From: an uncultured Saprospiraceae bacterium
GTDB lineage: Bacteria; Bacteroidota; Bacteroidia; Chitinophagales; Saprospiraceae
Direction of reading: 5' to 3'
Assembly (NCBI GenBank): GCA_937921825.1
Contig: CAKZVK010000081.1
Location: 1 to 43,041, forward strand
DNA length: 43,041 bases
The notes under the pieces were generated by a model. It saw only the letters and a list, made by a program, of their open reading frames with translations. It searched no databases and had not been told where the DNA came from. A program made the translations under genes and the position numbers. Positions 14,399-39,984 of this stretch are shown piece by piece. Each line of letters begins with the position of its first letter. Positions within the stretch are counted from its first letter, which is position 1.

Positions 14399-17300
14399 TC
14401 ATTTTGTTACCTCAATCTGTATTCCTTTGCTATGGCTGCTAAATTCTGGTGCATACATGGATTGAATCTCAGTGATTCCATTGCTGAACTTCCCGACATG
14501 GGCCGCCTTGACATCATACTCAAATACCCAGTTGCCCTTAGGCAGAAAATCAAAGTAGAAGTAGCTGGCTCTATCCTTAGTACTCTCATAGTAAGACAAG
14601 CCATCTTGCCATCTATACTGACTGAGTACATTCATAGGTTCTAGTCCACTGCTACGCATATCTTTCATTTCTATAAATTCCATCGGTCTATCTACTTGCA
14701 GTTCTATTCTGATGCGCAACTTATCTCCTGGAGCTACAGTATTCTCAGTGGTTATTTTTTCCAAAAGTTCACCAGATTCATCCACTGCGACTTTATAAAC
14801 CGCTTTATTTATAGTAAGCGGCGTATCATTAAACTGCTCTATCTTATCTAGGTCTTCAAAATATTGCCAGTAGGCCGCTCCCCAACTTACATTCTTATTT
14901 GGATTAGAAACTTTAATCTCGCTCATCTCTGGCTGCACCTTCTCCTTACTCCAATCCTTTCTGAAATAACCCGTCGCCAACTCAGCTTTAGGAATAGTCA
15001 CCGCTTCATTCATTAGAGGAAAAGAAATATCTAGAGTCCCATCAGTGCTTAACCATTTTGCATTGTCTAGAATAAAGGCATAACAGGCGAGCGCTGTGGC
15101 CTTTGAGGATTTCCAACTGTTGGTCTGTTTATTCTTGAGTAACCATAATTTCAATCCATCTATTTGCTCCTGAGACTCTCCTAATTCATGGAAGAGCTCT
15201 ATCATAATAGCCTGCTTATCTACATTATTGTTGTACCAATAATAGCCTGCCTGATCATTCCAGTAAGATCCTAGGATCTCATTGACTGTCATTTTTTCTT
15301 TCAATGATTCTAAGATCTTTTTTGCCAAATTTTCTTCTTGAAATCGTTGAGCAGCAAGAGCTATAAGGGCTTCCTGAAAGTTGCTCTTATTCATCCACTC
15401 TTCTTGACAAAGTTTTAGATACTTGCCGATCAGGTTGGAGGTTTTCGATTCTAACTTTTGGTCTGTAAAGAAACTTCGGACGTAGAGATAATGGATTGCT
15501 ATAGGATCTAAATGCTCATTTTTTCTTTTAGTTCTTTTTCTATCATATTCCGCAAAGGCATTGTCTATATAACTCAGAGCAGGATTTACCACGGCATTAA
15601 GTGCACTTACTTCTATACCTAACTTACTGAGATGCCCGATCTTCTCTAAGATATTTTGAGTCACATACCAATTATCTCTTCCGCCTGGCATCCAAGAGAA
15701 CCCACCATTGACAGTTTGTCTTTGCTTGAGGCGACCTACCATATCTCTAACCAGTGCCTGCTGATAATTTTCGTCAAGATGGAGCTTAAGTTGTCTGCGC
15801 TGCTCTTCTTCTTGGATTGCTGATCTAACCCATGGCGTATTATTCAGATCATTTATTTTCAGATCTTCATTCTTGCTAAGGTTGCTTTTCAGGTCTTCTT
15901 CAGTCCATCCTGCAATGACCTTCTTTATACTAGGCTGCTTAGTCAGGATATCCTGCATCAGTAGATTTCCATACACTGCATTTATGAGTTCTGTAGAAGA
16001 AGGGTTACTACTGGCCGTTAGTTGCGGAATAGCTTTCACGACTATCCATGCAGGGTTGACATTAAACTCCAGACTATAGTTATGATTTACTAGGCTAGAA
16101 CTGCTGTTCATTTTAGCCATTGCGTCTAGGCTGATCGTCTTCACTGATTCTGCAGATACATGTATAGGTAAGGTCTCCGTTACCAGCTTACGATTGGTAA
16201 GTACAGGGATTAGATTTTGCTCACCATCAGAATGACCACCTCCTTCTGTCCACATTTTTATAGCAATCGGTTCTAGATAGTCTTCAGGAATATAGAACTG
16301 CCACTCGATCGTCGTACTTTCCTGGCTAGCTAAGCTAGCGGATAGCTTTCCTGAGTCCTTCAGAAATAGTGCTGTAATATCTTTTCCTGATAGGGCATCA
16401 ACTATTTCTATATGGCTTACAGTTTCTAGTGTATTATCAGACAGGTTAGACACTTTCCCATTGATAGTTATCAGATCGCCTTGTCTAACAAATCTAGGCA
16501 TGTGTGGCTCTATCATCAGCGGCTTCTGAGTAAGAATAGACTTAGAATCAAAAGTGTATTGTAGCTCTTTATTATGAGCAAATAGTAATAAATTCCATTT
16601 GGTTAGAGCCTCATTCATTTTGAATTTCAAGGTGGCCTTACCATCTATGATACTAAGAGAAGGATAAAAGAAAACAGTTTCATTTAGATTTTCTCTGAGA
16701 GAAAAATTATCCTTTGCTACTTCATTACTGGTTCCATTGTTTTCTTTAGAATTGTTTGCCCATTCTGAAGTCCCACCTTGTTCCTCTGCCACTTCAAAAT
16801 CAGCACTTGCCGTATCAGCCATAGCTGCTTCAGGAGCCCCTGCTGAGGCCTGCATTGTTTTAGCTCTTTTCATAATGGGCGCCGATGATTCCATAGCCAT
16901 CTCATCCATGTAGCGTCCTCTCCTGTTCAGATATAGGCCGAAAGTATTGAGTTGTGGAGAGTATCCAAAAATGTGGAAGGTATTATAACGTGTACGGCTC
17001 AGATATACCTGACCATTCACTTTGCCAAAGCCTTTCGCTCTTATTTGGCCAGCTAGGGCATTTGTAGGGAAGAAATTTCTTTTCCAGTTATGACTGACAA
17101 ACTGATCTAAACTGGCATCGTACATCGTCGCTAGAAGCTCTCCCGAAATAGCCTTGCCATTCATATCCTTTATGACAAGTTCCCACTCCTCTTTGGCACC
17201 AGGTTCTAACTCATCCCTGAAAGTGTTATACTCTATCTTTAATTCCTTATTAGTCCAGGGTACGACGATAGGTATACGCTGAGAGTAAGTGCGCCCCTCC

Positions 17301-20300
17301 TTGATCATCATGAAATCGAGGTTAATGTTACCTCGATCTGCTTCTTTTACTACATAGCGTACTTGCCTTGATTGAGGAAGAGATTTCCACTCAGTCTGCG
17401 CCTTACCATTCTTATCGGTAATAGTATACAATACTTCAGCCTCCTTAAAGTCTGTGACAAGAGCTAAAATGACCTCATCACCTGGCTGATACGATTCTTT
17501 CGGAGTAGAGATCCAAAAGTGTAATCCAGCAGGCGCAGAACTACTCCTATCAAACAAGCTGATATATCTCACCAACTGAGACTCTCTGCCCTTCTCATCT
17601 GTAGCCTTGATATCCAACTTATAAACACCTGGAGGTAAATCACTCAACTCCTCTAATGGAAGAGTGCTAACCATTTCTTCTTTTAGAATTAATGCTACCC
17701 CTCTTTCTACCCACTTGGATTTATCAGTCTCGTCCACGTAAGCATCATAAGGAAATAAACTTTTAAACTCTGACTCTGGCAGGTACTGCAACTCAGGATA
17801 GTCCCAATATCTTTTACGCTTTACCTTAGAAGGACTTTCTATGGCCGTAACCTCCATTTCTACATTTACCTCTACCCGTTCATTTTCAGAATTAAGCACC
17901 TCAATTTCTGAGGGATTGTAAGTATTAAGCTCTGCGTACTCCGGTAGTTCTACTTTCAGATAAAAAGGTGTCGGCGATAGCACAAAAGACTTCTTCGAGT
18001 TTACCGATTCGCCAGTGGCATCCACGGCATCTATATGTACTACATAGTTATACGGATAAGTGTCGGATCCCGATTTGGTTAGAAAATCTACAGTAAAGCT
18101 ACCGTCTGCGTTCGTGCGGACTGAGCCAGAAGCCACTTGTTCATTACTCTGGTTACGACCGCCATAATAGCCATAGCGGAACCAACTCCTCATAGATCGT
18201 TCCACTCGATAATTAACCACAGCATCATCTACTATGGACCCACTAAAATTCTTCAGTGTACCTAAAACAGTAACTGAATCCCCTAAAGAATAAGCTTTAC
18301 TTAATTTATCTAGTTCAAGGAAAAGTTTCGGTCTTTTGTATTCCTCTACTCTTATTCTTTTCTGATTGGTTTGACGACCGACTCTGGCTTCTATAGTCAT
18401 AGCTCCAGTCAGTCCATTTTCAGGCGCTGTCATAGCTGTATGAAATGTACCGTACTCATTAGCTTCAAGATCTAGGGTTTTGATTTCCTGATAATTGGCA
18501 TCTCGAAAGACCAACTGTACTTTTTGTCCTGCAACTATAGAGGGTATGCGCTCTTCGCTATATTCTACAACTAGTCCTTTTACATATACGAGTTGTCCAG
18601 GCCTATATATAGCTCTATCTGTAAAGAGTACAACTTCCTGATACTTATTTTTCAGTCTATGACGACCACTGTAGTGACCCTCTCGCAAGTCTAGATAATC
18701 TTTCCCCTTGGTCAGCTTATAAAAGACATTTCTTTCCTTGGACTTGTATTCAAATCTTCCTTGTCTATCTGATTTTAATTCTGCTACTCTATTCCATTTG
18801 TTAGCCCTGGTCTGATGATCGTATTGCTCTGTATATACTTCGACATTCACATCGGACAGCGGTTCTCCAGATATCCTATCAGTGACATAGCCCAAAGCCA
18901 TTCCCCCCTCATAATTATCTAGTGAGATATATGCCAAATTAGAAACATGAAAAACGGAGATGACACCTTCACTCTTACCTGCTTTATGTTGCAGTAGCAT
19001 TGCATACCGTCCTGCTGACAAGCCTTGGATAGGAAACTCAATGCTATGCCATTTATGGTCTTCAGCTTGTTTCAGCTCTAAACGTCCATTAGTAACTGTA
19101 GGTAAATTTGAGACAAAAGCTATTTTCTCTTCTGATTTATAAGTTCGTTGATATTTGGAAAAGGCATCATCTTCCAGTCTTGTGATCTTATATTCTAAGG
19201 CGCTAGAATTTCTATAATTTAGCTTGGCTAAAAATGCCTTGTCGAGAAAGTTGACCTGCTCTACTTCTACTGCGTACTCTTCTTTTTCTAATCGATCTCT
19301 GAGAGAAGAGATAAACTGAGTATAATAGTTACTGCTGCCTTCTTCTAAAAGTTCATCCAGAAGTGTAGCCGCTTGCGTATAACTGTCTTTGTAGGATTCA
19401 CTAGTCTTTGACTGTTGTCCTTCATTCAGATAGAGGTTTATAAGTTTGATATATGGAGCCTCGTATCCCTGCTGACCATGATGTTTTTGCCCTAAACTGA
19501 GAAGAGCTGTTTTGTACCTATCCTTTTTATCACTAATCGTCGCATGCTGATTAACGAAATCCAAACGATTGACCTCTAACCATATGCTTTGTTCTAGTGA
19601 GAGACCTGACAATCTTTTAGTGTCCCCAAAAACCCTTAATGCAGTCAAGCCAAAGTCGTTATAAACCTTATCTGGGTCCCCTGCCTTTAATTCAAATGCT
19701 TCATCGTAAATCTCCTCTTGATTAAACAAGTAAGCATTAGTCGGTAAGGAGATCGTAGAGGTAGAAGTAGTAAAATGCTGTAAAGCTCTAAAGTGTAGAA
19801 ACTGCTCGATATTCTGAGCTCTGACTTTAGGCTGGGCTTGATCACTTTTCTGGAGCAGGATATCGACTTCCAATAGTTTGGCAGAGCCATCATAAGTAAG
19901 TGAAGCTATATAATAGTCAAAGGCTTTCTTTTGGATCTCTGCCAGAGAATTAAAAGGCAGCTCACCTTCAGGATCAGGCTCTGCAATATTAGTCCTCTGA
20001 CTGAAGCGGTAGGCATTGGCCATAGCATAACTGGCATACATCTCTCCGAGAAGTGAACTGAATACTGCTTTAGTAGAAGGTGCATTTATATGAGTAAGTT
20101 CAGACTCGAGCTCCAAAATGAAAGTTGCAGGATCTTTATCCTCAAAGGTTTGTGATAACTTAACCTTATAGATGATTGCTTTTATAAGTTGATCTTCGTC
20201 GCCCTTATCCTTGGCAAGATCATAGATTTGCTCTACGATTTTATAAGCGGACTTGGGCATTTGGCGCTCCTCTTTCGCCACCTGCTTCCATAGTTTGTCA

Positions 20301-20374
20301 TAGTCGTTGGATTCCGAATCCGATAAAAACAAACTACCAAATAGGCTGAAGACTACAAGCATTAAATATTTCAT
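14399..20374 (-). CDS. Alpha-2-macroglobulin family protein, no thioester motif
   Basis: A very large (1,991 residues) exported protein of the bacterial alpha-2-macroglobulin type. In order: a signal peptide (MKYLMLVVFSLFGSLF); a ~450-residue helical N-terminal region; a carboxypeptidase-regulatory-like beta domain (YVTDRISGEPLSDVNVEVYT); MG2-type domains (AIYRPGQLVYVKGLVVEYSE); a low-complexity insert (AMESSAPIMKRAKTMQASAG and onward, ~1180-1240); the A2M core (LNETVFFYPSLSIIDG, then MNEALTKWNLLLF); and a helical TED-like region with a C-terminal receptor-binding-like domain. The thioester CxEQ is absent: the corresponding stretch reads SSNPSSTELINAVYGN. Protease trapping by covalent capture is thus unlikely. 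No lipobox and no partner PBP1C gene are present. It follows the FAD oxidoreductase by 65 bases. Confidence 0.85.
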   Translation of the reverse strand: MKYLMLVVFSLFGSLFLSDSESNDYDKLWKQVAKEERQMPKSAYKIVEQIYDLAKDKGDEDQLIKAIIYKVKLSQTFEDKDPATFILELESELTHINAPSTKAVFSSLLGEMYASYAMANAYRFSQRTNIAEPDPEGELPFNSLAEIQKKAFDYYIASLTYDGSAKLLEVDILLQKSDQAQPKVRAQNIEQFLHFRALQHFTTSTSTISLPTNAYLFNQEEIYDEAFELKAGDPDKVYNDFGLTALRVFGDTKRLSGLSLEQSIWLEVNRLDFVNQHATISDKKDRYKTALLSLGQKHHGQQGYEAPYIKLINLYLNEGQQSKTSESYKDSYTQAATLLDELLEEGSSNYYTQFISSLRDRLEKEEYAVEVEQVNFLDKAFLAKLNYRNSSALEYKITRLEDDAFSKYQRTYKSEEKIAFVSNLPTVTNGRLELKQAEDHKWHSIEFPIQGLSAGRYAMLLQHKAGKSEGVISVFHVSNLAYISLDNYEGGMALGYVTDRISGEPLSDVNVEVYTEQYDHQTRANKWNRVAELKSDRQGRFEYKSKERNVFYKLTKGKDYLDLREGHYSGRHRLKNKYQEVVLFTDRAIYRPGQLVYVKGLVVEYSEERIPSIVAGQKVQLVFRDANYQEIKTLDLEANEYGTFHTAMTAPENGLTGAMTIEARVGRQTNQKRIRVEEYKRPKLFLELDKLSKAYSLGDSVTVLGTLKNFSGSIVDDAVVNYRVERSMRSWFRYGYYGGRNQSNEQVASGSVRTNADGSFTVDFLTKSGSDTYPYNYVVHIDAVDATGESVNSKKSFVLSPTPFYLKVELPEYAELNTYNPSEIEVLNSENERVEVNVEMEVTAIESPSKVKRKRYWDYPELQYLPESEFKSLFPYDAYVDETDKSKWVERGVALILKEEMVSTLPLEELSDLPPGVYKLDIKATDEKGRESQLVRYISLFDRSSSAPAGLHFWISTPKESYQPGDEVILALVTDFKEAEVLYTITDKNGKAQTEWKSLPQSRQVRYVVKEADRGNINLDFMMIKEGRTYSQRIPIVVPWTNKELKIEYNTFRDELEPGAKEEWELVIKDMNGKAISGELLATMYDASLDQFVSHNWKRNFFPTNALAGQIRAKGFGKVNGQVYLSRTRYNTFHIFGYSPQLNTFGLYLNRRGRYMDEMAMESSAPIMKRAKTMQASAGAPEAAMADTASADFEVAEEQGGTSEWANNSKENNGTSNEVAKDNFSLRENLNETVFFYPSLSIIDGKATLKFKMNEALTKWNLLLFAHNKELQYTFDSKSILTQKPLMIEPHMPRFVRQGDLITINGKVSNLSDNTLETVSHIEIVDALSGKDITALFLKDSGKLSASLASQESTTIEWQFYIPEDYLEPIAIKMWTEGGGHSDGEQNLIPVLTNRKLVTETLPIHVSAESVKTISLDAMAKMNSSSSLVNHNYSLEFNVNPAWIVVKAIPQLTASSNPSSTELINAVYGNLLMQDILTKQPSIKKVIAGWTEEDLKSNLSKNEDLKINDLNNTPWVRSAIQEEEQRRQLKLHLDENYQQALVRDMVGRLKQRQTVNGGFSWMPGGRDNWYVTQNILEKIGHLSKLGIEVSALNAVVNPALSYIDNAFAEYDRKRTKRKNEHLDPIAIHYLYVRSFFTDQKLESKTSNLIGKYLKLCQEEWMNKSNFQEALIALAAQRFQEENLAKKILESLKEKMTVNEILGSYWNDQAGYYWYNNNVDKQAIMIELFHELGESQEQIDGLKLWLLKNKQTNSWKSSKATALACYAFILDNAKWLSTDGTLDISFPLMNEAVTIPKAELATGYFRKDWSKEKVQPEMSEIKVSNPNKNVSWGAAYWQYFEDLDKIEQFNDTPLTINKAVYKVAVDESGELLEKITTENTVAPGDKLRIRIELQVDRPMEFIEMKDMRSSGLEPMNVLSQYRWQDGLSYYESTKDRASYFYFDFLPKGNWVFEYDVKAAHVGKFSNGITEIQSMYAPEFSSHSKGIQIEVTK

Positions 20375-33492: not shown

Positions 33493-34602
33493 ATGGAGAA
33501 TCTATTTGTAGTATGTGGGGTTTTTTCTGCGCTTTTTGTGCTTTTACTTTTTACTAGAAAGTCGAAGCAACTTGAGCACATCTTCCTAGGTACTATCTTC
33601 CTCTTGATTACGATTAACTGTGTATTTGTATTTCTTTTTGCGAAAAGTCCTACGGTATACTATCAAGCTTTTTTCTCAGAGCTGAATTATGCCATTCCAT
33701 TATTATATGGCCCGCTGCTCTGGTTCTACAACAAGGCTCTTACCATAGAAAACTTCAAGCTCAAGAGCTGGGACTATTGGCATTTTGTGCCCTTTTTATT
33801 ATTCCTCTTGATCATATTGATACCAGTCTTTACAGCCTATAACTTACCTACTGACTCACAATTAGGGTATCCCCTCATTAAGTTAGTCACGGCACCCTTC
33901 TATCTTATTATGGTCATAAGGATCATTAGAAACTATCATAAAAAGTTTCTAGAAGCCTACTCCTATGAGCAAGAAGTGAATTTGCTATGGATGAACTGGA
34001 TAGTGGTGGGAGCCATAATATTATGGGTCATAGGCTCCGTGAGCTATATCTATAATCTCTTCAATGAACATGATAGCATCTTGCTCTATGATTATTATAC
34101 GCTTGGGTTTCTAGGCCTGTACATCTTTGGATTAGCCTTTATAGCGGTCAGGAAGACAGATCTATTCTCTGCTCAAAAACCACAGTTGCTAAAAATAGAA
34201 TCAGAAGAATCTATTGCCGAGACGGATAGGCCAGAGGAAAGCCTCAGAGCGCAAGAATACACAGATGAGGACAAAGCGAAACTTCTACAATTAATGGAAA
34301 CGGAGGAGCCCTATCTCGATCCCCTACTGACTCTCAATAAACTATCAAGACAATCTGATATACCCAGTTATAGATTGACCAAAGTGCTCAAGCTTTCCTT
34401 TGAGTCTAATTTCTATGACTTTATAAATAAGTATCGCGTAGAGAAAGTAAAAAAGCTTCTAGCTGATGGCAAAGCAGATAACTACAGCATCTTAGGAATA
34501 GCAGAGGAAAGTGGTTTTAATTCTAAGGCTTCATTCAATAGAGTCTTTAAAAAAACTACTGGGATAACGCCAACAGCTTATCTAAAAAACTTGAAGTCCT
34601 AA
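33493..34602 (+). CDS. Membrane-bound AraC-family transcriptional regulator
   Basis: A 369-residue regulator with about seven N-terminal membrane helices (VCGVFSALFVLLLF, IFLGTIFLLITINCVFVFLF, HFVPFLLFLLIILIPVF and others; to ~220), a short charged linker, and a C-terminal AraC/XylS double helix-turn-helix (~265-369: LTLNKLSRQSDIPSYRLTKV, then FYDFINKYRVEKVKKLLADG, GIAEESGFNSKASFNRVFKK and TTGITPTAYL). This layout is common in Bacteroidota, where the membrane part is presumed to sense a signal. The target is unknown. It is divergent from the M20 peptidase and convergent with cdaA; the two stops share 4 bases (34599-34602). Confidence 0.9.
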   Translation: MENLFVVCGVFSALFVLLLFTRKSKQLEHIFLGTIFLLITINCVFVFLFAKSPTVYYQAFFSELNYAIPLLYGPLLWFYNKALTIENFKLKSWDYWHFVPFLLFLLIILIPVFTAYNLPTDSQLGYPLIKLVTAPFYLIMVIRIIRNYHKKFLEAYSYEQEVNLLWMNWIVVGAIILWVIGSVSYIYNLFNEHDSILLYDYYTLGFLGLYIFGLAFIAVRKTDLFSAQKPQLLKIESEESIAETDRPEESLRAQEYTDEDKAKLLQLMETEEPYLDPLLTLNKLSRQSDIPSYRLTKVLKLSFESNFYDFINKYRVEKVKKLLADGKADNYSILGIAEESGFNSKASFNRVFKKTTGITPTAYLKNLKS

Positions 34603-35449
34603 TCGAATCCTGAGAAGTACTGAGTGACTTTCAGTCTCAATTCATCCTCAGAAACATTTTGGTAGATTCTTCCTTCTGAAGCATAAGAGACTTCCCCATT
34701 TTCTTCAGACACCATAACGGCAAGATGATTAGTGCTTTCCGTAGCTCCTAGGCCTGCTCTATGCCTGAGCCCCAGATCATCAGGTAAGTTGGTGTTTTCT
34801 GATACTGGTAAGATACAACTGGCCGCTACAACTTTATCATAGAGTATAACGACAGCACCATCATGCAGAGGGGCATTCTTAAAGAATAAATTTTCCAGGA
34901 GTATGGAACTGACTTTAGCATCTATGACCTTGCCTGTCTTTACGAGTTGGAAGGCATCTGACTTAGTGAGTATCATGAGTCCTCCTGTCTTAGTCCGACT
35001 TAGTGCCACAGTTGCTTTTAGTATTTCATTGGTCAATGCAGTGGCTTGATCTGTATTATCCAAGCCCGTCTGCTTGAAGAACTTTTCGAAGAAGTCGTAT
35101 CGGGTCTTCAAGGTATTATCTCCTACCATCAGTAAGAACCTCCTTATCTCTGGCTGGAAAATCACCATCAGTCCTATCAAACCAATTCCGGCTACAGAAC
35201 CCAACATAAGGCTGAGAAATCGCATTTGTAGATTGGTCACTACTGTAAGCAACAAGAAAAAGATAGTAATACCTATAAAGATATTAACTGCTACTGTTCC
35301 TTTGACATACTTATATACGAGGTATATTAAGTAAGCGGCAATGAGCACGTCTAGAATATCCAGTATCCTAATGGTAAAACCTCCTATTTCGAAAAGATAA
35401 ATAAGCCTCTTTTTTTGTAGTCCAAAGTTATCAAATTCAATGTCTCCAT
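34599..35449 (-). CDS. cdaA: Diadenylate cyclase CdaA (c-di-AMP synthase), apparent frameshift near the start
   Basis: Joins two ATP into c-di-AMP at the membrane. The DAC domain has both key motifs: DGA in NAPLHDGAVVIL and RHR in DLGLRHRAGLG. Three N-terminal helices fit CdaA. The uninterrupted frame has only a GTG at 35348, inside helix 1, yet the same frame reads conserved CdaA sequence upstream of it (LFEIGGFTIRILDILD). That frame has no ATG. An ATG at 35449, 6 bases after the previous stop, opens another frame (METLNLITLDYKK) which meets the CdaA frame at a run of seven A's (35410-35416). Reading one base twice there joins them into a protein of about 283 residues, close to the usual length. 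Either an indel in the run or slippage could explain it. Confidence 0.85.
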
Positions 35450-38322: not shown

Positions 38323-38904
38323 GTGCTAGGACTAAAACTACCTACTGATCCTAGATGGGTCAATCTTGCAGAAAAAAGTCTGGAAGAAATTCTAACTGAC
38401 CATGCTTACTGTGAGCAGAAGGCAGCGACCTCTTGTATTACACTGATTCAGATGTTTCCTGATAGAGAAAGACTGGTAAAGGAACTAGCGCCTATAGTAA
38501 CTGAAGAATGGGGACATTTCAGAATGGTACTCAAAGAGCTAGAAAAGCGAAACCTAAAACTAGGCTACCAGAGAAAAGATGAATATGTCAATAAGCTCAT
38601 CAGCTTTCAAGAAAAAGGGGGCGGCAAGGATAAAAGTCTACTGGAAAGGCTACTCACCTTTGCACTCATAGAAGCCCGCAGTTGCGAAAGATTCCGATTA
38701 CTTTCTCTACATATATCAGAGGAGGAGCTCAAGGAGTTCTACCACAAATTCATGGTGAGTGAGGCAGGCCACTATAGGTTATTTATAGATCTAGCAAAGG
38801 AATATGCTGGCGAAGAAGTCGCTAAGGCTAGATGGCAAGAATACCTCGATTATGAAGCTACCATAATGAATGAGCTGACACCTAGAGGTGACAGGATGCA
38901 CTAG
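38323..38904 (+). CDS. miaE: tRNA-(ms2io6A) hydroxylase MiaE-like
   Basis: A di-iron monooxygenase that hydroxylates the isopentenyl group of ms2i6A37 in tRNAs, using O2. The 193 residues fit the Bacteroidota MiaE length. A four-helix ferritin-like bundle carries the ligands: Glu31 in HAYCEQKAAT, the EExGH of TEEWGHFRMVL (Glu62, His65), Glu in ALIEARSCERFRLL, and SEAGHYRLF. The LPTDPRWVNLAEKSLEEILT opening is typical. Translation starts with GTG directly after the stop of the upstream gene. It would depend on MiaA and MiaB, which are not in the window. It implies oxygen is available to the organism. Confidence 0.9.
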   Translation: MLGLKLPTDPRWVNLAEKSLEEILTDHAYCEQKAATSCITLIQMFPDRERLVKELAPIVTEEWGHFRMVLKELEKRNLKLGYQRKDEYVNKLISFQEKGGGKDKSLLERLLTFALIEARSCERFRLLSLHISEEELKEFYHKFMVSEAGHYRLFIDLAKEYAGEEVAKARWQEYLDYEATIMNELTPRGDRMH

Positions 38905-38936: not shown

Positions 38937-39965
38937 TTATACCGCTAGATTCTCTTTATTCTTTCTGCCCGCTACAAAATCTGCTTCAGAAGACCCTGTG
39001 ATTTTTATACCCCCTCTATCGGTCCTTAGTACCCTACTGAAAAGAGATAGCTCTTTATCGAAGATCCACTGTAATAACAGTTTAGTCCATGAGGTATGAT
39101 AGACAAGAGTTTCATAGTACTCAGGAGCTATAGCCTTGATCTTTGGTAAATTGTTCCACGGCACATAGGCAAAGTCATGATGCTCATTATGATAGCCTAC
39201 ATTAAAAGCTACTTTATTGAGAATCCCATAGTAGCTGTAGGTCTCTTGAGGTGGGGCCACTAAAAAGTGCTCTTGGATCCATCTCGCACCTAATGGGTGC
39301 AGTCCTATCGAAAAGACAAAAGAGAAGGCAAAGTATGCCAAAGCAATAGGGCCCATGAATAAATAGATACAGACATTAAAAACTATTACAGTCAGGATAT
39401 TGATATAAATCCACTTACTAGCAAACTTGATCTCCTTGAGTCTTGGAGGTCTGAGAGCAGTAAAAACTGGGAAAAACATCAGCCATAGTGACTTCCCAAT
39501 GAAATTAGAGCCTATTAATTTTGCTTCCCAGCTACTTGGCAGGTCTGCATCTATATCATAATGTCCCTGAAAAGCATGATGCTTCAAGTGGTACTTTCTA
39601 AATGAAACCGAGGTAGGAAAAGCATTAGGAAGGTCACAGAGGATACCTCCCCATAGGTTTGCTGTTCTATTTTTGAACACCATATTATGCGTAAACTCAT
39701 GCATAAGCACAAACAAGGCATGATTAGCAAAGGCCCCTACAGCATACGCCGCAATCAATGCAACCCACCAAGCATAGCCACTAACAGCAAAAGCGACCGC
39801 TATCTGCAAGATAACTATCCCTAAAGTGTAATAAAACGTATTAGGATTTCTCCCCATAAGTTTCTTAATTTCGGGATACTTAGTGATGATCTCTTTAGTC
39901 CTCTGAATATGAGGCTCTTCTGAGTGGGAATGGTGAAAATCTGTCGTAAACTGGCTCATTTGCAT
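38937..39965 (-). CDS. Membrane desaturase resembling sphingolipid/dihydroceramide delta-4 desaturase (DEGS)
   Basis: A 342-residue membrane desaturase. The three His boxes are complete: HEFTH (89-93), HLKHH (126-130) and HNEHH (259-263). Beyond the general fold it follows eukaryotic DEGS1: an N-terminal Lipid_DES-like stretch (EEPHIQRTKEIITKYPEIKK then LMGRNPN), GLHPLGARWIQEHF, ETYSYYGILNKVAFNVGYHN before EHHDF, LPKIKAIAPEYYETLVYHTS, and ELSLFSRVLR. Human DEGS1 has near-identical wording at these places (from memory). It probably introduces a double bond in a sphingoid or capnine-type long-chain base, which Bacteroidota make. The gene is alone, convergent with miaE, and has an exact -7 element 11 bases upstream. 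A second ATG two codons in is an alternative start. Confidence 0.82.
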   Translation of the reverse strand: MQMSQFTTDFHHSHSEEPHIQRTKEIITKYPEIKKLMGRNPNTFYYTLGIVILQIAVAFAVSGYAWWVALIAAYAVGAFANHALFVLMHEFTHNMVFKNRTANLWGGILCDLPNAFPTSVSFRKYHLKHHAFQGHYDIDADLPSSWEAKLIGSNFIGKSLWLMFFPVFTALRPPRLKEIKFASKWIYINILTVIVFNVCIYLFMGPIALAYFAFSFVFSIGLHPLGARWIQEHFLVAPPQETYSYYGILNKVAFNVGYHNEHHDFAYVPWNNLPKIKAIAPEYYETLVYHTSWTKLLLQWIFDKELSLFSRVLRTDRGGIKITGSSEADFVAGRKNKENLAV

Positions 39966-39976
39966 GAATTATGGCG

Positions 39977-39984
39977 CAAAGTTA
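39977..39984 (-). promoter_or_regulatory. Bacteroidota-type -7 promoter element for the desaturase
   Basis: Minus-strand TAACTTTG matches TAnnTTTG exactly and ends 11 bases before the ATG at 39965, predicting a very short leader. The plus-strand response regulator across the 115-base gap has no equally good match. Confidence 0.5.

Follow-up and report, generated by a model that had tools for sequence, protein, structure and literature searches.

The window analysed here, a stretch of 43,041 nucleotides that forms one whole contig (C81) of a Saprospiraceae metagenome-assembled genome (MAG), contains a gene that, judged by its domains and phylogeny, encodes a membrane-bound desaturase of the DEGS family, belonging to a bacterial subfamily. 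We consider it probable, with some reserve, that the protein is an O2-dependent diiron sphingolipid delta-4 desaturase that acts on dihydroceramide, and perhaps also on N-acylcapnine in some lineages. The enzyme family as such is known; what is new is its bacterial subfamily, whose substrate is uncertain and may be dual. The host genome comprises 4.0 Mb in 172 contigs and is 96.5% complete, and the nearest named relatives of the window, among the scan matches listed, are also Saprospiraceae MAGs. The coordinates of the features discussed below, including the reading frame that an earlier note on this DNA had placed correctly, are collected in Table 1.

Table 1. Positions of the desaturase gene, its domains and motifs, a neighbouring gene, and the host genes for long-chain base synthesis. 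Positions are those of the window unless another contig or locus is named.
Feature	Position	Strand	Details
DEGS-family desaturase CDS	38937..39965	(-)	342 aa; ATG at 39965, stop at 38937 (stop included)
Lipid_DES (PF08557) N-terminal domain	39840..39944	(-)	residues 8-42; 54.7 bits, cut-off 23
FA_desaturase (PF00487) domain	39099..39770	(-)	residues 66-289; 97.2 bits, cut-off 29.7
His box 1, HEFTH	39687..39701	(-)	residues 89-93; H89, H93 invariant in 62 sequences
His box 2, HLKHH	39576..39590	(-)	residues 126-130; H126, H129, H130 invariant in 62 sequences
HPLGARWIQEH	39267..39299	(-)	residues 223-233; H223, H233 invariant in 62 sequences; R228-W229 is a bacterial-subfamily mark
His box 3, HNEHH	39177..39191	(-)	residues 259-263; H259, N260, E261, H262, H263 invariant in 62 sequences
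TAACTTTG, match to the Bacteroidota -7 promoter consensus	39977..39984	(-)	sequence read; candidate only
MiaE-like tRNA hydroxylase gene	38323-38904	(+)	convergent with the desaturase; Pfam MiaE 143.5 bits
SPT run, ten tightly packed same-strand genes	L046:6875-15673 (G000:C21, about 47874-56672)		
Host SulA (L200)	G000:C2:26186-27430	(-)	625 bits to the SulA-type query; Lys at 281

Two Pfam domains were identified in the protein. The N-terminal Lipid_DES domain, which bears the Pfam name "Sphingolipid Delta4-desaturase" and is specific to DEGS, has a single match in the host genome and none in the 14 control genomes, while the FA_desaturase domain is found in three host genes and has matches in five of the 14 controls. 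Both domains are present in all 62 of the aligned relatives (E <= 0.001). No NCBIfam model reaches its cut-off for the protein, and a sequence search of solved structures gave nothing better than E 0.19. Compared with three animal DEGS sequences that served as provisional references, the protein shares 37.6% identity with each of human DEGS1 and DEGS2 and 42.8% with fly ifc over 313-319 aa, with E-values from 2e-87 to 5e-70; ten ordinary desaturases, taken from the host and from related genomes, reach only 23-30% identity, at E 1e-10 or weaker. The fold predicted by AlphaFold2 is a confident model (mean pLDDT 93.8, pTM 0.91), but its Foldseek matches in the PDB are weak: two chains from FtsHi motor complexes rank first (E 3e-4), and AlkB (E 4.5e-3 and 0.022) and SCD (E 0.09 and 0.8) come after them.

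The phylogeny confirms this placement. We extracted 127 DEGS-family proteins and left out those shorter than 300 aa and the exact duplicates, which yielded 110 bacterial rows for a 123-row tree. In this tree, the 113 DEGS rows stand apart from the ordinary desaturases (97 SH-aLRT), and the window protein sits in a clade of 24 rows, mostly Saprospiraceae, with a support of 99. A smaller tree of 63 rows, for which 42 of the 110 bacterial rows and 13 of 20 newly fetched genes were hand-picked for spread, again sets these 55 bacterial and the three provisional animal rows opposite five outgroup rows (91/88), the outgroup being very distant. The DEGS-like identity proposed in the earlier note is therefore upheld by the Lipid_DES domain and by both trees, and the phylogenetic check that it had suggested groups the desaturase with DEGS and not among the ordinary acyl-lipid desaturases.

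The three histidine boxes are present as had been noted, in the pattern HxxxH, HxxHH, and HxxHH. All of the stretches that the earlier note had quoted as specific to DEGS (KYPEIKKLM, GLHPLGARWIQEH, ETYSYYG, FNVGYHNEHHDF, APEYYETL, and LSLFSRVLR) are found in the translation; the claim of specificity fails for GLHPLGARWIQEH, which is not specific to eukaryotic DEGS. At this place, the three provisional animal and seven canonical bacterial rows have G-H-F, and the window protein has A-R-W instead.

How is this difference distributed within the bacterial family? The motif HP(L/V)G(A/G)RW(I/V)QEH(Y/F) occurs in 122 of the 127 extracted proteins, and HPLGARWIQRHY occurs in three (two from KSB1 and one from Gemmatimonadota). 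The other two (L022 and L023) have HPT(S/A)GHFISEHY, which is close to the provisional animal sequences, and five of 20 further genes (L224-L227 and L237) are likewise of the G-H-F type. A comparison of 123 window-type rows with the seven canonical bacterial and three provisional animal rows revealed seven positions that separate the types (window/canonical): 86 V/L, 169 Q/Y, 227 A/G, 228 R/H, 229 W/F, 270 W/G, and 296 L/V. Positions 228, 229, 270, and 296 hold in all 123 window-type rows. The A-R-W sequence is a mark of the subfamily, and not a known requirement for activity. R228 was also considered as a mark of sulfonate binding and was ruled out, as it is present in all 123 window-type rows, including those from genomes with SPT only. 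Three smaller observations concern the variety within the family. In the proteins with HPLGARWIQRHY (L077 and L092 of KSB1, L112 of Gemmatimonadota), arginine replaces the glutamate before the conserved histidine. The bacterial genes of the canonical, eukaryote-like type reach at most 51% identity to the provisional fly ifc, in L224. Within one genus code (g129), L222 (genome G185) is of the window type and L224 (genome G298) is of the canonical type.

The desaturase gene is solitary, as the earlier note had observed: the MiaE-like gene on one side is convergent, and the response regulator gene on the other is divergent. The MiaE-like gene scores 90.9 bits with the NCBIfam model, below the cut-off of 320, and MiaE homologues adjoin the desaturase in nine of the best 80 loci, all from close Saprospiraceae. 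In the flanks of the best 80 loci, which extend to at most 10 kb and are often shorter, none of the genes of the host SPT run was found beside the desaturase (tblastn, at least 50 bits), and gene-neighbour evidence for a sphingolipid role was therefore dropped. No neighbour family is widely common; among the 14 families listed, each is present in at most seven of the best 80 loci. A mobile-element origin of the gene was also rejected, since no match was obtained in plasmids or in two viral-contig scans, the second of which gave 13 stretches matching the pattern and no relative of the desaturase. Eleven bases upstream of the ATG stands TAACTTTG, a match to the -7 promoter consensus of Bacteroidota, which we take to be TAnnTTTG. 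A promoter at this candidate site would leave a very short leader before the start codon. The scan for sigma-70 consensus sites found two, as compared to a shuffle mean of 3.9. Elsewhere in the window, a CdaA-type diadenylate cyclase with DAC and CdaA_N domains (34599-35348, minus strand) and a 1991-aa open reading frame (14399-20374, minus strand) were observed.

The bacterial DEGS-family gene is widespread, and not rare. We scanned one genome per species for 84,980 species of bacteria and archaea and obtained at least 594 matched stretches; at least 582 of them encode a relative, and one gene may be counted repeatedly. The best 80 of these at least 582 belong to Saprospiraceae, Melioribacter and other Ignavibacteria, KSB1, Gemmatimonadota, Mucilaginibacter, Chitinophagaceae, and other Bacteroidota. 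Within the host genus, it recurs in 12 of 13 further genomes, and the thirteenth is 79% complete. In a sample of the phylum, it is present in 41 of 392 genomes, host included, each at E 1.3e-124 or better, and the other genomes of this sample have no desaturase match at E <= 1e-30.

Which substrates could the enzyme meet in its host? The genome search for sphingoid genes that the earlier note had recommended found both an SPT, within a run of lipid genes, and a SulA. The SPT (L046:9116-10318, contig C21) scores 527 bits with the solved Sphingobacterium SPT (3A2B), as compared to 257 and 254 bits with the solved cysteate enzymes, and has alanine at the position corresponding to SulA 281. Conversely, the SulA-type query scores 618 bits with 7u7h, 595 bits with 28eh (Cysteate-C-fatty acyltransferase), and 229 bits with SPT; 7u7h, an AOS enzyme and the top-scoring chain, is presumably the SulA of A. 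finegoldii. The host SulA has lysine at position 281, a residue described as diagnostic of SulA (PMC9304779). The SPT run, which is on a different host contig from the desaturase, encodes in order a CDP-alcohol phosphatidyltransferase, a DUF4833 protein, a PAP2 protein, SPT, a GNAT protein, an epimerase, MIPS (myo-inositol-phosphate synthase), PgpA, GtrA, and a GT2 protein. By analogy with the roles described for bCerS and CerR (PMC11087976), the GNAT protein and the epimerase encoded 3' of SPT might be these two enzymes. GtrA and GT2 in the same run might mean that the inositol-phosphoceramide is glycosylated. With this gene content, the host cell could plausibly form dihydroceramide and its phosphoinositol derivative as well as N-acylcapnine. 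A host with both SPT and SulA may make both sphingolipids and sulfonolipids.

We then compared carriers of the desaturase gene with non-carriers, scoring SPT as present at E <= 1e-95 in both the phylum sample and a class sample of 256 genomes, and SulA at the same threshold in the phylum sample. The 41 carriers in the phylum sample comprise 18 with SPT and SulA, 17 with SPT only, and six with SulA only. In the 17 carriers with SPT and no SulA, the base therefore comes from SPT, if from either. A separate search of 50 hand-picked genomes from the best 80 loci, which overlap with the phylum-sample carriers, detected an SPT-type gene scoring 385 bits or more in 43; the other seven each have a Lys281 enzyme, and no SPT was found in them. 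Compared with the PDB, one of these seven enzymes gave the 618, 595, and 229 bits mentioned above. Among cultured carriers, Mucilaginibacter species have both SPT and SulA, while Puia dinghuensis has SulA and yielded no SPT. In the phylum-sample carriers, residue 281 bears out these labels, being lysine in all 23 SulA-type and alanine in all 33 SPT-type genes read, counted apart from the two genes of the host and leaving out the SPT-type gene of G190.

In the class sample, 10 of 19 carriers have SPT, and among the non-carriers the figure is 14 of 237 (Fisher p 4e-7); counted by genus, SPT is present in 7 of 13 versus 9 of 134 (p 5e-5), both tests ignoring phylogeny. In contrast, SulA is not enriched (18 of 19 versus 209 of 237, p 0.7). 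Co-occurrence with either gene was rejected as an argument, because almost every genome of the class sample has one or the other (236 of 256, with SulA-type genes in 227), which makes it uninformative. SPT is absent at E <= 1e-95 from 9 of the 19 carriers in the class sample and from six of the 41 in the phylum sample. Two carriers, G646 (99% complete, locus L196) and G032 (89% complete, locus L019), yielded neither SPT nor SulA, and in G032 the SPT query matches nothing even at E 1e-30. In one example each from Ignavibacteriales (L179), KSB1 (L180), and Gemmatimonadota (L181), SPT adjoins homologues of the host GNAT and epimerase genes. A clean split between ceramide and capnine enzymes was sought by eye in the 123-row and 63-row trees and was not seen.

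On these grounds, we propose the following scheme for the reaction. In the host, the likeliest substrate would be dihydroceramide or its phosphoinositol form, supplied by the SPT run. Since relatives of the enzyme occur in genomes with SPT only and in genomes with SulA only, we infer that it probably recognises the common 2-acylamino-3-hydroxy-alkyl core, and it may take N-acylcapnine too. By family precedent, the enzyme would use O2, together with electrons delivered by a redox partner, to take a hydrogen from each of the carbons C4 and C5 in the long-chain base of an N-acylated lipid, and a trans-4,5 double bond would be formed beside the C3 hydroxyl. The earlier note had cautiously suggested a delta-4 unsaturated sphingoid or capnoid base, and this reading gains support from the DEGS placement and from the SPT and SulA of the host. 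A capnoid base is a real alternative, given the carriers in which the searches turned up SulA and no SPT. According to a classification paper (PMC5037126), sphingolipids are the sole known substrates of delta-4 enzymes. As seven positions separate the subfamily from canonical DEGS, the chemistry could also differ. Other points that speak against our reading are the lack of SPT-run genes in the flanks of the best 80 loci, the carriers in which SPT or both pathways were not found, and the weak structural matches to known diiron enzymes. The active site of the desaturase fold is expected on the cytoplasmic side. In Caulobacter, keto reduction was proposed to be periplasmic and to follow N-acylation (PMC11087976), and a periplasmic keto reduction of this kind would sit awkwardly with a desaturase that faces the cytoplasm.

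Other activities have to be weighed against delta-4 desaturation. Both desaturation and C4-hydroxylation occur in the DEGS family, and DEGS2 is named a desaturase/C4-monooxygenase (PMC13161914), so that the protein might be a C4-hydroxylase or a DEGS2-like bifunctional enzyme that acts on dihydroceramide or capnine and gives 4-hydroxy bases of the phyto type. The bacterial sulfonolipid RIF-1, whose base has its second hydroxyl at C5 (PMC3463246), is in keeping with such an activity, as are the locations of the differing positions, three of which are in the HP stretch (227-229) while W270 follows HNEHHDF by five residues. The window protein is equally near to the provisional DEGS1 and DEGS2, which decides neither for nor against the hydroxylase, and we regard this activity as unlikely. 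An enzyme specific to sulfonolipids, which would desaturate N-acylcapnine and have only an incidental link with SPT, would accord with the high-scoring SulA of the host and with the carriers described above that have a Lys281 enzyme and no SPT (7 of the 50 named-locus genomes and 6 of the 41 phylum-sample carriers, in overlapping sets). Moreover, Batrakov reportedly described 4-ene bases in 1998 and 2000, in a sulfonolipid of Cyclobacterium marinus and a sphingolipid of Flectobacillus major. Nevertheless, the 17 carriers with SPT and no SulA, the lack of SulA enrichment among carriers, and the failure of the SulA-only carriers to form one separate clade by eye all speak against it, and we give it little credence. 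A different lipid target, such as the amide-linked acyl chain of sphingolipids or the acyl chains of glycerolipids, seems similarly improbable. The DesA-family protein CC_0202 of Caulobacter was reported to hydroxylate the amide-linked acyl chain (PMC11324152), and G646 carries the gene with neither SPT nor SulA found; against this stand the Caulobacter vibrioides control, which has an FA_desaturase match and no Lipid_DES, the membership of the protein in the DEGS family, and the enrichment of SPT in carriers.

As DEGS enzymes are usually described from eukaryotes, the gene might also have been acquired recently from a eukaryote, or the contig might be a contaminant in the MAG. This explanation is largely refuted, and we hold it to be extremely improbable: nearly all of the other genomes of the genus carry the gene, its neighbours are common to close relatives, the best 80 of the at least 582 matched stretches come from several phyla, and the window protein is placed firmly in its mostly Saprospiraceae clade. 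In the 63-row tree, the provisional animal DEGS are sister to six canonical bacterial sequences (100/100), and this joint group meets further bacterial rows at 82/90. A single clade of all 55 bacterial rows is rejected at the borderline (p-AU 0.045), while a single clade of the 49 window-type rows is not rejected (p-AU 0.47). The guess of the earlier note that the family may have a bacterial root thus finds backing in the sister relationship, tempered by the borderline rejection of bacterial monophyly. These results do no more than suggest a bacterial origin of the DEGS family: with a very distant outgroup, a weak root (91/88), and provisional animal rows, transfer may have gone in either direction. 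A still broader idea, which we put forward as a doubtful but conceivable one, is that one ancient bacterial family makes the delta-4 bond in both ceramides and sulfonolipids of Bacteroidota and neighbouring phyla, through their shared amide-hydroxy core, and that eukaryotic DEGS, and hence sphingosine, arose from its canonical-type branch.

The 4,5 double bond distinguishes the ceramide and sphingosine of animal signalling from the dihydro forms, which a review ascribes to bacteria in naming dihydroceramide as their product (PMC10191378). Among the literature matches listed, searched by titles and the starts of abstracts and with most subscription journals outside the search, there is no bacterial delta-4 desaturase. 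If our reading is correct, the gene described here is a candidate for the formation of bacterial long-chain bases with a double bond. Some bacteria may then make the sphingosine-type lipids usually credited to eukaryotes, which would bear on the source of eukaryotic sphingosine, and an unsaturated ceramide in a sample would not by itself prove a eukaryotic source. A study of the Black Sea reported that a median of 46% of the ceramide structures have one double-bond equivalent in the base (PMC11334938). The lipids of the anoxic water are not simply explained by the present enzyme, because it would require O2.

How does this system compare with those already known? The host SPT run looks like the inositol-phosphoceramide cluster of Bacteroides, by analogy with the inositol-lipid cluster of B. 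thetaiotaomicron, which comprises the PI-dihydroceramide synthase BT_1522, the CDP-alcohol-type protein BT_1523, the hypothetical protein BT_1524, PgpA (BT_1525), and MIPS (BT_1526) (PMC9246714). The CDP-alcohol transferase, PgpA, and MIPS are present in both. The host has a DUF4833 protein where Bacteroides has the hypothetical BT_1524, and it also has a PAP2 protein, the kind to which BT_1522 presumably belongs. Unlike BT_1522-1526, the host run further contains SPT, the GNAT protein, the epimerase, GtrA, and GT2, and the likeness is one of annotation. The Caulobacter acyl hydroxylase CC_0202 and the window protein are both desaturase/hydroxylase-family enzymes linked to bacterial sphingolipids (PMC11324152), a likeness at the level of annotation; unlike the window, the Caulobacter control genome has no Lipid_DES match. 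Further parallels are found within the DEGS family itself. The window protein resembles eukaryotic DEGS1 and DEGS2 in domain make-up, length, the three histidine boxes, and the ETYSYYG and NVGYHNEHHDF motifs, and differs from them at the seven positions; in the 63-row tree, it does not belong to the clade that unites the animal with the canonical-type rows. The canonical-type bacterial DEGS (L022, L023, L224-L227, and L237) belong to the same family and phylum as the window protein. In contrast to it, they possess GHFISEHY, and the six of them in the tree join the animal enzymes at 100/100, which the window protein does not.
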